Shown piece after piece: positions 246 through 52,890 of a stretch of DNA of 64,000 nt (position 1 is its first letter; every line of letters begins with the position of its first letter). The translations under genes were made by a program, and so were the position numbers. This DNA is from Spirochaetota bacterium. GTDB lineage: Bacteria > Spirochaetota > Spirochaetia > Treponematales > UBA12059. The stretch lies in contig JADFDI010000011.1 in the NCBI GenBank assembly GCA_018262985.1, forward strand, positions 1 to 64,000, read 5' to 3'. Below the pieces are notes generated by a model. The model saw nothing but the letters and a program-made list of their open reading frames with translations, searched no databases and was not told the origin of the DNA.

Positions 246-522
246 CTACTTCGTGATCAGGGTGCCGGCTTTCCCGTCCACGCGCCGGCCCTGCGGGCCG
301 GACGGCGACGAGCGCCGGAATGGCGCTCGTCGATGCCAAGGAACCTCGCCGCGGTCGACGGGGTCCTTACTTCGTGATAAGCGTCCCGGCCTTCCCGTCC
401 ACGCGCCGGCCCTGCGGGCCGGACGGCGACGAGCGCCGGGATGGCGCTCGTCGATCGCAAGGAACCTCGCGGCCGTGGACGACCGATTACTTCGTGATCA
501 GAGTGCCAGCCTTGCCGTCCAC
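246..522 (-). repeat. Tandem array of the carbamate kinase gene tail (3 copies, about 120-base period)
   Basis: The last 11 codons of the carbamate kinase gene, encoding VDGKAGTLITK and a stop (487-522), occur again at 367-402 and 246-281 on the same strand. All three encode exactly the same 11 residues followed by a stop, but with different codons (for example GGC/GGG/GGG, ACT/ACG/ACC, CTG/CTT/CTG). Copy spacing is 120 and 121 bases. The spacers hold two hairpins each: GACGAGCGCC/GGCGCTCGTC around a 5-base loop, and CCGGCCC/GGGCCGG. No start codon with a ribosome binding site serves the extra tails, so they are not separate genes. Confidence 0.85.
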
Positions 523-1428
523 GGCCGCGAGGGCGTGGTCGAGGTCGGTGATGACCACCTGCTTGCCGCCGCGCTTGACGAAGTCGCAGGCGGCCTCGAT
601 CTTCGGGCCCATCGAGCCCTTGGGGAACTGTCCGTCGGCGTGGTGCTTCTCGGCCTCGGCCACGGTCATGCGGTCGAAAACCTGCATGTCGGGCTTCTTG
701 TAGTTGATGGCCACGCGGTCGACGCCGGTCAGGATCAGGAGCTCGTCGGCCTTGAGCAGGTTGGCGAGCAGGGCGGACGCGCGGTCCTTGTCGATGACGG
801 CGTCGACGCCGACCACGGTGCCGTCGGCCTTGCGCTCGACGGGCACGCCGCCGCCGCCCACCGCGATGACGATCTTGCCGTTCTCCACGAGCTCGTGGAT
901 GACGTCCTTCTCGACCACGTCCTTCGGGAGCGGCGAGGCGACCACGCGGCGGTAGCCCCGGCCCGGGTCTTCCTTCATCACCCAGCCCTTGGCGCGGCAG
1001 GCGTCGAGCTGGGCTTCCTTGAAGAAGGGACCGACGTACTTGGTCGGGTTCTTCATGGACGGGTCCTCGGGATCGACCACCACCTGGGTGACCACGGTGA
1101 CGACGTCCTTCTTGATCCCCTTGAGCGCGAGCGCGTTCTGGAGCGACTGCTGGAGCATGTAGCCGATCGAGCCCTGGGTGTCGGCGACGATGACGTTGAG
1201 CGGGCTCGGGGGCACCTGGGACGAGCCGGCCTCGTTGCGGATCAGCTGGACGCCGGCCTGCGGGCCGTTGCCGTGGGTCAGCACCACGCGGTGCCCTTCG
1301 GCGATCATGCCGACGATGGCCGCCATTGACTTGCGGGTGTTCTCGAACTGCTGCTCGCTGGTGCCTTCCGCGCCCTCTTCGATGAGGGCGTTGCCGCCGA
1401 GCGCGACGACGATGGTCTTCCTGCTCAT
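487..1428 (-). CDS. arcC: Carbamate kinase
   Basis: 313 residues, the usual length. The enzyme interconverts carbamoyl phosphate plus ADP with carbamate plus ATP, normally as the ATP-yielding last step of arginine deiminase, agmatine or purine/allantoin fermentation in the cytosol. Amino-acid kinase family signatures are clear: VALGGNALIEEG at the N-terminus, VVLTHGNGPQ near residue 50, AVGGGGVPV near 200 and DKDRASALLA near 225. The ATG is chosen because it begins the conserved fold; a much longer open frame upstream is a GC-rich artefact overlapping ispH. No ArcA or ArcB partner is nearby, so which pathway supplies carbamoyl phosphate is unknown. The 3' end is followed by two extra copies of its last 11 codons. 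Confidence 0.95.
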   Translation of the reverse strand: MSRKTIVVALGGNALIEEGAEGTSEQQFENTRKSMAAIVGMIAEGHRVVLTHGNGPQAGVQLIRNEAGSSQVPPSPLNVIVADTQGSIGYMLQQSLQNALALKGIKKDVVTVVTQVVVDPEDPSMKNPTKYVGPFFKEAQLDACRAKGWVMKEDPGRGYRRVVASPLPKDVVEKDVIHELVENGKIVIAVGGGGVPVERKADGTVVGVDAVIDKDRASALLANLLKADELLILTGVDRVAINYKKPDMQVFDRMTVAEAEKHHADGQFPKGSMGPKIEAACDFVKRGGKQVVITDLDHALAAVDGKAGTLITK

Positions 1429-46993: not shown

Positions 46994-47024
46994 GGAATGA
47001 CGATCGGACCCGAGGAGGTTGCCC

Positions 47025-48284
47025 GTGAGCATGACCAGCATAGTCGGAGCCTACAACACCAAGTTCGGCTCTTTCGTCCAGAAGAACAGGGATACCGGCG
47101 AGGTCACCGACCTCAAAAGCATCTACGAGCTCTTCATCGAGGCCGGCCGCGGAGCCCTGGCCGACGCGGGAGTCTCGGCGAAGGACGTGGACGGCGTCTG
47201 GACCGGATCCTGCGCGCCCGGGCTCTTCGCCAACCAGGAGCACATCGGGGCCATCGGCGCCGAGATCGACCCCGAGGGCCTCCGTTTCAAGATGATGACG
47301 CGCCTGGAGGCGGCCTGCGCCTCCGGCTCGGTCGCCCTCTACAACGCCGTGTACGCCGTCGAGTCCGGGCGCGCGAAGGTCGCGCTGGTCCTCGGCGTGG
47401 AGAAGATGAACCTGCTCAACACCAAGGGCGTCACCCACGCGCTGGCAACCTGCTCCTACTGGCCCGAGGAGGGCGGCACGGGCATGAGCTTCCCCGCGCT
47501 CTTCGCCGAGTACGCCAAGGGCTACCGGGCGAAGTACGGGCTTTCCGACGCCGAGCTCGCGCGCCAGCTGGCCCACGTCGCGGCGCTCTGCTATCGCAAC
47601 GGCCTCGACAACCCGCTCGCCCATTTCGGCAAGGGCAGCCCCGCCGACAAGCTCCAGCTCGTCACCGCGGACGCCATCCTCGGCCTGCCCGAGGAGAAGA
47701 ACCCGATGATCGCGGAGCCGCTCAGGCTCCACGACTGCTCGCTCGTGACCGACGGCGCGGCAGCCGTGGTCGTCATGCGCACCGACGACGCGAAGAAGGC
47801 CGGGAAGAAGGCGGTGGAGATCGCGGGCATCGGCCACGTCAACGAGCGGCTCGCCATCAGCGTCAGGCCGAACATGCACGAGCTCATGGCCGGCAAGGAA
47901 GCCGCCCGCCGCGCCTTCGCGGAGGCGAAGATGGGCATCGGCGACGTCCAGGCCGCCGAGGTGCACGACTGCTTCACCATCAACCAGGTCCTCTGCACCG
48001 AGGCGCTCGGGCTCTCGAAGGACGGGCGGGCCGGTTACGACTACGCCGACGGCCGCTTCGGCCGCGACGACCCGAAGTGCTCGGTCAACCTCTCCGGCGG
48101 CCTCAAGGCCAAGGGTCATCCGGTCGGCGCAACCGGCGTCTCCATGCACGCCCTGCTCTACAAGCAGCTCACCGGCGAGCCCATCGGCGCGACCCGCGCG
48201 AAAACCCCCGAAGCGGGCGTCACCCTCAACGTGGGCGGCAGCGCCGTGACGAACTGCGTCACCGTTCTGCGCCGCGTGAAATAG
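47025..48284 (+). CDS. SCP-x/acetyl-CoA acetyltransferase-type thiolase
   Basis: 419 residues; GTG six bases after GAGGAGG, preferred over a TTG and an ATG in the same frame that are spaced badly. The non-classical thiolase (SCP-x or archaeal acetoacetyl-CoA thiolase) pattern is clear: nucleophile Cys98 in RLEAACASGSVAL, EVHDCFTINQ, and LSGGLKAKGHPVGATGVSMH. It would cleave a 3-oxoacyl-CoA with CoA in the last step of the catabolic route. No DUF35 OB-fold partner, common for this thiolase branch, is adjacent. Its 3' end is repeated twice downstream. Confidence 0.93.
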   Translation: MSMTSIVGAYNTKFGSFVQKNRDTGEVTDLKSIYELFIEAGRGALADAGVSAKDVDGVWTGSCAPGLFANQEHIGAIGAEIDPEGLRFKMMTRLEAACASGSVALYNAVYAVESGRAKVALVLGVEKMNLLNTKGVTHALATCSYWPEEGGTGMSFPALFAEYAKGYRAKYGLSDAELARQLAHVAALCYRNGLDNPLAHFGKGSPADKLQLVTADAILGLPEEKNPMIAEPLRLHDCSLVTDGAAAVVVMRTDDAKKAGKKAVEIAGIGHVNERLAISVRPNMHELMAGKEAARRAFAEAKMGIGDVQAAEVHDCFTINQVLCTEALGLSKDGRAGYDYADGRFGRDDPKCSVNLSGGLKAKGHPVGATGVSMHALLYKQLTGEPIGATRAKTPEAGVTLNVGGSAVTNCVTVLRRVK

Positions 48285-48752
48285 GCGCTGCCTGATCGGG
48301 ATGATGACGGCGCTGCCCGGGCCAACCCGGGTCGCGCCGTTTTTTTATGGAAACGGATCATAGGGCGTCGCCTCACGGCGACGTTTAAATCGGCGCGACC
48401 CGGTCGACGACTCCCGAAGCGGGCGTCACCCTCAACGTCGGCGGCAGCGCCGTGACGAACTGCGTCACCGTTCTGCGCCGCGTGAAATAGGCGCTGCCTG
48501 ATCGGGACGATGACGGCGCTGCCCGGGCCAAGCCGGGTCGCGCCGTTTTTTTATGGAAACGGATCATAGGGCGTCGCCTCACGGCGACGTTTAAATCGGC
48601 GCGACCCGTGCGAAAACTCCCGAAGCGGGCGTCACCCTCAACGTCGGCGGCAGCGCCGTGACGAACTGCGTCACCGTTCTGCGCCGCGTGAAATAGGCGC
48701 TGCCTGATCGGGACGATGACGGCGCTGCCCGGGCCAAGCCGGGTCGCGCCGC
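48183..48752 (+). repeat. Tandem array of the thiolase gene tail and terminator (206-base period, 3 copies)
   Basis: The last 34 codons of the thiolase gene, its stop, the terminator and a GTCGCC/GGCGAC hairpin form a 206-base unit that starts at 48183, 48389 and 48595; the third copy ends within its terminator, which has lost the T tract. In copies 2 and 3 the reading frame stays open to the same stop. Most differences are synonymous (ACC to ACT, GTG to GTC); copy 2 also has a cluster of amino-acid changes at its beginning (RAKT to RSTT). The extra copies have no start codon or ribosome binding site of their own. Confidence 0.9.
48309..48346 (+). terminator. Intrinsic terminator after thiolase (copy 1)
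   Basis: GGCGC-t-GCCCGGG pairs with CCCGGGT-c-GCGCC around CCAA, followed by seven T residues. The same terminator recurs at 48515-48552; a third copy at 48721-48750 lacks the T run. Confidence 0.92.
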
Positions 48753-48763
48753 TATTCATGCAA

Positions 48764-48794
48764 AGGGTCGTCCGCGCAGCGCGGACGACCCTTC
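48764..48794. terminator. Bidirectional hairpin between the thiolase array and the DUF4097 gene
   Basis: AAGGGTCGTCCGCG and its complement CGCGGACGACCCTT nearly abut. It separates convergent transcripts. Confidence 0.7.
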
Positions 48795-48817
48795 CCGGAT
48801 CCTTGACGCGAGCCCAG

Positions 48818-52583: not shown

Positions 52584-52876
52584 TCGCCGAAGCGAAGCTT
52601 CGGCGCCGCGAAGGGCGCTCGGTAGATCGCCGAAGCGAAGCTTCGGCGCCGCGAAGGGCGCTCGGTAGATCGCCGAAGCGAAGCTTCGGCGCCGCGAAGG
52701 GCGCTCGGTAGATCGCCGAAGCGAAGCTTCGGCGCCGCGAAGGGCGCTCGGTAGATCGCCGAAGCGAAGCTTCGGCGCCGCGAAGGGCGCTCGGTAGATC
52801 GCCGAAGCGAAGCTTCGGCGCCGCGAAGGGCGCTCGGTAGATCGCCGAAGCGAAGCTTCGGCGCCGTCAAGGCGCC
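52557..52876 (+). repeat. 43-base tandem array at the TatD-like gene end (7 hairpin copies)
   Basis: A GAAGCTT core occurs at 52594, 52637, 52680, 52723, 52766, 52809 and 52852, spaced exactly 43 bases. Each unit is a hairpin (CCGAAGC-gaa-GCTTCGG) followed by a near copy of the gene's last codons and stop (GGCGCTCGGTAG against GGCGCTCGGGTAA). The exact gene-tail sequence TTCGGCGCCGTCAAGGCGC is found both inside the gene and again after the last unit, so the array is bracketed by it. Units are virtually identical. The period is not a multiple of three. Confidence 0.95.
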
Positions 52877-52890
52877 ATAGGCGCCTTGAC
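52866..52890. terminator. Bidirectional terminator hairpin between the TatD-like gene and the chemoreceptor
   Basis: Perfect 11-base inverted repeat GTCAAGGCGCC/GGCGCCTTGAC with a 3-base loop between convergent genes, formed partly from the last copy of the gene tail. Confidence 0.75.

Follow-up and report, generated by a model that had tools for sequence, protein, structure and literature searches.

Stacked, synonymously recoded gene ends behind arcC and other housekeeping genes of uncultured Spirochaetota, and their possible origin by displacement

Introduction

Mobile open reading frames (ORFs) that replace the C-terminal end of a host gene are described from fungal mitochondria, in atp6, atp9, cox2 and nad3 of Glomus and in atp6 of Allomyces macrogynus (PMC3630166). 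Here we report a similar arrangement in a bacterium. The window, by which we mean the whole stretch of 64,000 nucleotides that was analysed, is the start of a contig (C2) in the 3.4-Mb genome of an uncultured member of Spirochaetota, and in it the carbamate kinase gene arcC is followed by two further copies of its own last codons and stop. Extra last codons with a stop are found behind arcC and, in related uncultured spirochaetes, behind eight or more further housekeeping genes; the extra ends use other synonymous codons, and small hairpin repeats lie between them. We think it rather probable that these tails are former or alternative 3' gene ends, displaced by the serial insertion of hairpin-linked ends, of which some were imported and others duplicated in place.

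In the fungal hybrids, as here, a new end is fused in frame and the native end is displaced downstream, an arrangement seen at arcC and, among the related genomes introduced below, at groEL in G001 and G002 and at a thiolase gene in G001. In both systems the nucleotide sequences diverge strongly, most amino acids are retained, and the proposed source of the new end is another lineage. Fungal inserts, however, carry an endonuclease ORF and measure about a kilobase, whereas the units described here are 40–200 bp long, non-coding apart from the tail, and affect many bacterial genes in stacks two or three deep. The arcC inserts, at 120–241 bp, contain no endonuclease ORF and leave no room for one. 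Since the units carry no ORF, the spirochaete system is not a member of the fungal type. Our literature search found swapping described for fungal mitochondria only, and no account of gene-end displacement in bacteria.

Some integrative elements rebuild the 3' end of the gene that they target; these elements, such as e14 in icd of Escherichia coli, are kilobase-sized, encode a tyrosine recombinase and use one att site. There, as here, the former end is displaced and its place is taken by one that differs synonymously; unlike them, the present units are tiny and occur at many unrelated genes. The core boxes of integron attC sites (RYYYAAC..GTTRRRY) are not present in the arcC unit sequence.

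Two families of small palindromic elements also invite comparison. Repetitive extragenic palindromic (REP) elements of the GTAG and CGTC families are, according to PMC3733652, short palindromes with many copies and variants that lie mostly downstream of genes, and the CGTC type is present in Spirochaetes without a known transposase. The hairpins described here are likewise palindromic, intergenic and numerous, with about 50 matches to one subfamily pattern; unlike REPs they lack a fixed unpaired GTAG or CGTC tag, their arms vary freely between constant ends (AT..CC), and they are tied to duplicated gene ends, a link that did not emerge when that source was searched. The double-hairpin elements of Allomyces mitochondria (Paquin et al. 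2000, cited in PMC2800124) are described there, in the part available, as GC-rich and without a known enzyme; they share with the present units the two hairpins, the GC-richness and a frequency that differs between close relatives, but they are mitochondrial, and that part describes no stacking of gene ends.

Three ends behind arcC

The complete arcC gene, recognized from the ORF list and from orthologues, occupies 487..1428 on the minus strand, as do all parts of its array. Its last codons and TAA form tail A (487..522, GTGGACGGCAAGGCTGGCACTCTGATCACGAAGTAA), which is the end in use and encodes VDGKAGTLITK. The same peptide is spelled by tail B (367..402, GTGGACGGGAAGGCCGGGACGCTTATCACGAAGTAA), again with TAA, and by tail C (246..281, GTGGACGGGAAAGCCGGCACCCTGATCACGAAGTAG), with TAG. 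Orthologues of arcC in related Spirochaetota share 72–99% identity, and the closest named relatives are Spirochaetota metagenome-assembled genomes (MAGs) at 98–99%. In what follows, G labels denote the genomes compared; G001 and G002 are congeners, and G008 belongs to another genus.

A preliminary description had noted that the three copies differ only synonymously and that an in-frame spacer of 84 bases separates the first two. Both observations hold. Every pair of tails differs at five codons, all synonymous when stop-to-stop changes are counted, and A and B are 120 nt apart from start to start, in frame, with 84 nt between them. The comparison of B with C is the most telling, as both are non-coding today: random changes would be synonymous in 28% of cases, and the chance of five out of five is 0.28^5, or about 0.002.

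In the congeners G001 and G002 arcC has one end only, and it resembles copy C. Relative to G002, copy C differs at three codons, A at seven (of 12, synonymous) and B at eight. Along the gene itself divergence jumps at the junction: of the last 13 codons eight are changed, all synonymously, as against 29/301 up to codon 301 (Fisher p = 1.5e-5). Copy C is closest to the congeners and A is hyperdiverged at the tail; thus, C is the native arcC end, and the end in use is a stranger. Consistent with this, C has no unit behind it and runs into TAGCCTTC..GA, resembling the native 3' flank as seen in G001. The possibility that the repeats are young and their pattern due to chance, also raised in the preliminary description, is rejected for arcC by this contrast and by the recurrence of the pattern at many genes.

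Between consecutive ends lies a small unit with a constant plan. The last codons of the gene body contain a coding arm, X (516..532, CCTCGCGGCCGTGGACG, codons about 299–304), and its perfect reverse complement X' follows stop A (465..481), so that the two pair in a stem enclosing tail A and its stop. Unit A continues with hairpin 1 (425..455, ATCGACGAGCGCC-ATCCC-GGCGCTCGTCGCC) and hairpin 2 (405..424, GTCCGGCCCGCAGGGCCGGC), the latter directly ahead of tail B. In unit B the order is the same: X' at 344..360, hairpin 1 at 304..334 (ATCGACGAGCGCC-ATTCC-GGCGCTCGTCGCC) and hairpin 2 at 284..303, directly ahead of tail C. The X' of unit B, a piece that the preliminary description had overlooked, is the reverse complement of CCTCGCCGCGGTCGACG (codons LAAVDG), a synonymously different version absent from both the gene and the congeners. 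The repeat extends beyond the tail: each of the units A and B measures about 120 bp, with 91% identity over 114 nt (TRF and a repeat finder), and the fold of the whole array has z = -5.5.

The array lies 246 bp from the contig end, the genomes are MAGs, and one G002 contig looks foreign, all of which could be taken to indicate an assembly artefact or a chimera. We consider this highly improbable. The gene after the array is yajC, in the same order as in the congeners, which argues against an edge effect, and the same architecture occurs at many genes, mid-contig and in several genera.

In the congeners, the gap between arcC and yajC (L006, L007) holds another inverted repeat, CCACGGAGACACGGAG..CTCCGTGTCTCCGTGG, which is also found behind ychF, tuf and other genes.

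Stacked ends at other genes

Loci carrying the hairpin elements were scanned for duplicated tails, and orthologue searches were added. The scan found duplicated tails at arcC in G008, at groEL in the genome of the window (GMGGMDY), at proS, ackA and ychF in G015, at ychF in G010, at serS in G028 and at a gene for an Opp-type ATPase in G056. The orthologue searches contributed groEL stacks in G002, G010, G015, G017, G020 and G056, and serS in G001. A survey blind to the hairpin motif, covering 569 gene ends on two contigs of the window's genome, gave six with tail-like repeats within 500 nt downstream and none when the downstream regions were exchanged; the six include tuf and the thiolase-like gene of the window, whose cores are of another hairpin type. 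At the amino-acid level such a survey yielded nothing clear beyond the nucleotide result.

Ends can be seen to change status at groEL. In G001 end S stands alone, followed by an S1-domain gene; in G002 ends T, V and S precede that same gene; and the genome of the window has S, T and U. Thus, an end that one species has displaced serves as the working end in another. Taken with the single congener end matching arcC copy C, this implies that each copy was at one time functional and was later displaced. The earlier proposal that the tails have been protected, or used as a real gene end, is therefore upheld as to their past use, with displacement following. A further groEL end in G002 (L126, contig C133) resembles that of family f4 (G056), and the contig is probably a contaminant of the MAG.

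The groEL stacks also bear on whether the second tail is an alternative C-terminus, programmed or reached by stop-codon readthrough, as the in-frame spacing of arcC A and B would allow. Each groEL end has its own terminator-like hairpin and T-run ahead of the next copy, and terminator-like hairpins also separate the ends at tuf and thiolase. At arcC the frame is lost between B and C (121 nt from start to start), and readthrough could extend no further than tail B; over all loci the offset between neighbouring tails is a multiple of three in 9/27 cases, the proportion expected by chance. We give this reading next to no credence.

A count of synonymous against non-synonymous differences across loci other than groEL gave 28 synonymous codon differences out of 38 between neighbouring copies, as against about nine expected. 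Between the orthologous displaced ychF tails of G010 and G015 there are five codon differences, again all synonymous. Frequent amino-acid changes or frameshifts in the extra tails had been named as evidence against protection, and amino-acid changes or lost stops are present at some distal copies: the third copies of ychF and proS carry amino-acid changes, and the stop is lost in the third groEL end of G056 and the third tuf end of the window's genome. These cases fit old displaced ends that are beginning to decay.

The thiolase gene of G001 provides a second case of a hyperdiverged end in use. Compared with the window's genome, its tail (TNCVTVLRRVK-stop) differs at 11/12 codons, all synonymous and including CGC to AGA and CGC to AGG, as against 74/288 changed codons elsewhere in the gene (p = 5e-6). 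Behind it lie two hairpin units, then a native remnant, CGCGTGAAG-CTAG, and then the native 3' flank. At loci where the congeners are empty, the distal end proves to be the native one. Outside its own genome, the nearest match to the new G001 tail is in G008.

The window's own thiolase-like gene (47019–48284) has three ends at 48183..48800 on the plus strand, in units of 206 bp that include a terminator-like hairpin and are built on another hairpin core, GGAAACGGATCATAGGGCGTCGCC..GGCGACG. The tuf gene (EF-Tu; contig C2, about 97750–98400, L470) has three stacked ends with terminators, of which the third adjoins native DNA; the congeners have one end. At both loci the units are near-identical in tail, untranslated region (UTR) and terminator, and tandem duplication in place is their probable origin.

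This raises the question of whether the same process, tandem duplication promoted by hairpins and followed by drift, could explain every stack without any import, with purifying selection on the used copy and short age accounting for the synonymous pattern. The near-identity of the tuf and window thiolase units speaks for it, as do the arcC copies of G008, whose duplicated tail (VDGLAGTKIVK) is identical over 41 nt, and the two ackA copies of G015, which are equally close to the relative. On the other hand, drifting fossils should show about 60% amino-acid-changing differences, whereas arcC has none among eight inferred changes and B and C differ synonymously at all five positions; in addition, the used end is hyperdiverged exactly at the junction, at arcC (8/13) and at G001 thiolase (11/12). 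As a general explanation we regard it as unlikely, although it deserves to be taken seriously.

In serS of two different families (L143 and L267, in G028 and G001) the X' arm is now coding, making the protein longer by AKAGG or AKAGA; in G001 the distal serS copy keeps a native-like end.

The two-hairpin repeat family

The arcC units belong to a repeat family with about 50 copies in the genome, in which AT[CG..palindrome..CG]CC is followed by a second palindrome to give two hairpins. The pattern ATCGACGA-N8..24-TCGTCGCC has 50 matches in this genome, which cover one subfamily, 27 and 17 in the two congeners and fewer in other genera; a reversed control pattern has none. Loci show two-hairpin units, often in tandem at 46–76 bp spacing and commonly beside stop codons. 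The members ATCGACGA..TCGTCGCC, ATCGAGGAGC..GCTCCTCGCC and ATCGCCGAAC..GTTCGGCGCC have only AT[CG..CG]CC in common. A strict scan for perfect palindromes gave 33 as against four in shuffled sequence; the simple gene calls used made intergenic placement unreliable. Rfam returned no credible match, and the arcC array was unmatched in plasmid sequences. Viral contigs gave 120 single matches to a loose pattern, which we judged likely to be chance.

Orthologous hairpins change both arms jointly, as in GTGAAC..GTTCAC to GTCAAC..GTTGAC and in GCTAGCGGC..GCCGCTAGC to GTTAAGGGC..GCCCTTAAC. Joint change of this kind, seen in the arms of orthologous hairpins 2, would be expected if the tail codons were rewritten by templated correction of the imperfect palindrome X-tail-X' through template switching, with selection purging amino-acid changes. 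The perfect X/X' match in arcC and groEL of the window's genome agrees with this, as does the observation that the X' arms follow the codons at groEL in G001 and G002, where the variants differ and yet match. Most of the recoded arcC codons (305–314), however, are loop codons that belong to neither X nor X', and X' alone cannot template them. We consider this explanation improbable, less so than readthrough but more so than duplication in place.

Neither of the enzyme systems considered could be connected with the hairpins. Six Y1-transposase genes are present in the window's genome, and the part of their flanks that was inspected shows GGGGACAGAGCTC repeats in place of these hairpins, so a link to REP-associated tyrosine transposases (RAYTs) was set aside. 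Repeated GGGGACAGAGCTC motifs precede the RAYT-like Y1-transposase genes of these spirochaetes (L233–L252). A retroelement origin (diversity-generating retroelement, retron or group II intron) was rejected, as no match to reverse transcriptase (PF00078) was obtained in the five genomes searched, that of the window included (G000, G001, G002, G010 and G015).

Intergenic tandem hairpin arrays (L073, L080, L083) reach six to seven units of 55–60 bp; each unit has the 5' arm of hairpin 2, and the matching 3' arm is in the last unit only.

Proposed serial displacement of gene ends

Under our preferred reading of serial displacement, a small hairpin unit, consisting of X', about 9 nt, hairpin 1 and hairpin 2, would come to lie between consecutive ends. 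Each addition would supply the gene body with new C-terminal codons and a new stop, in many cases with a terminator as well, and would push the prior end downstream. As every addition displaces the prior end in this direction, the distal-most copy should usually be the native one, still entering native flank. The synonymous differences would have accumulated in each copy during its time as a functional gene end, with decay setting in only after displacement. At arcC and G001 thiolase the codon comparisons suggest that the new end was probably imported from another lineage, since a native end copied recently would not carry so many synonymous changes. Import would proceed by recombination. As to how the hairpin unit is joined to the tail, the constant X'-core-X form may point to template switching or to a recombinase guided by the hairpins. 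Survivorship is likely to contribute, identical direct repeats being lost by recombination while diverged repeats stay.

Several observations weigh against serial displacement. Among 294 genomes of the order we found no donor for the arcC or thiolase end, and no recombinase or transposase could be linked to the units. Between arcC units A and B the hairpin cores share about 96% identity, with tails and X' regions far more diverged, so these units did not simply travel as intact blocks. The groEL orders S-T-U and T-V-S require re-acquisition or rearrangement, and the groEL synonymous count is biased, since some of its tails were found with an amino-acid-demanding pattern. Finally, the tails in use at ychF and ackA show no unusual divergence.

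A bolder version is that the ends are themselves mobile: non-autonomous gene ends recognized by their hairpins, one for each conserved tail, spreading between species with the host protein unchanged. Such minute cassettes would insert in the last codons and supply a recoded tail, a stop and a terminator. We regard this as possible but doubtful.

If serial displacement is correct, the 3' ends of essential genes (groEL, tuf, arcC, serS, ychF) have been exchanged time and again with the protein left unaltered, in a bacterial counterpart of the C-terminal swapping of fungal mitochondria. Beside each gene the displaced ends would then be stacked as dated fossils, preserving in nature a record of how species have exchanged gene ends, and they would be a likely source of tail-local incongruence and codon anomalies. 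The enzyme joining hairpin units to coding tails becomes a concrete search target, and, if import is true, a donor would bear the arcC end GCCGTGGACGGCAAGGCTGGCACTCTGATCACGAAGTAA as its only, native end.

Elsewhere in the window, at 52584–52880, some seven ATCGCCGAAGCGAAGCTTCGGCGCC hairpins are arrayed behind a TatD-like gene; their units end in GGCGCTCGGTAG, similar to the last codons of the gene, GGCGCTCGGGTAA.
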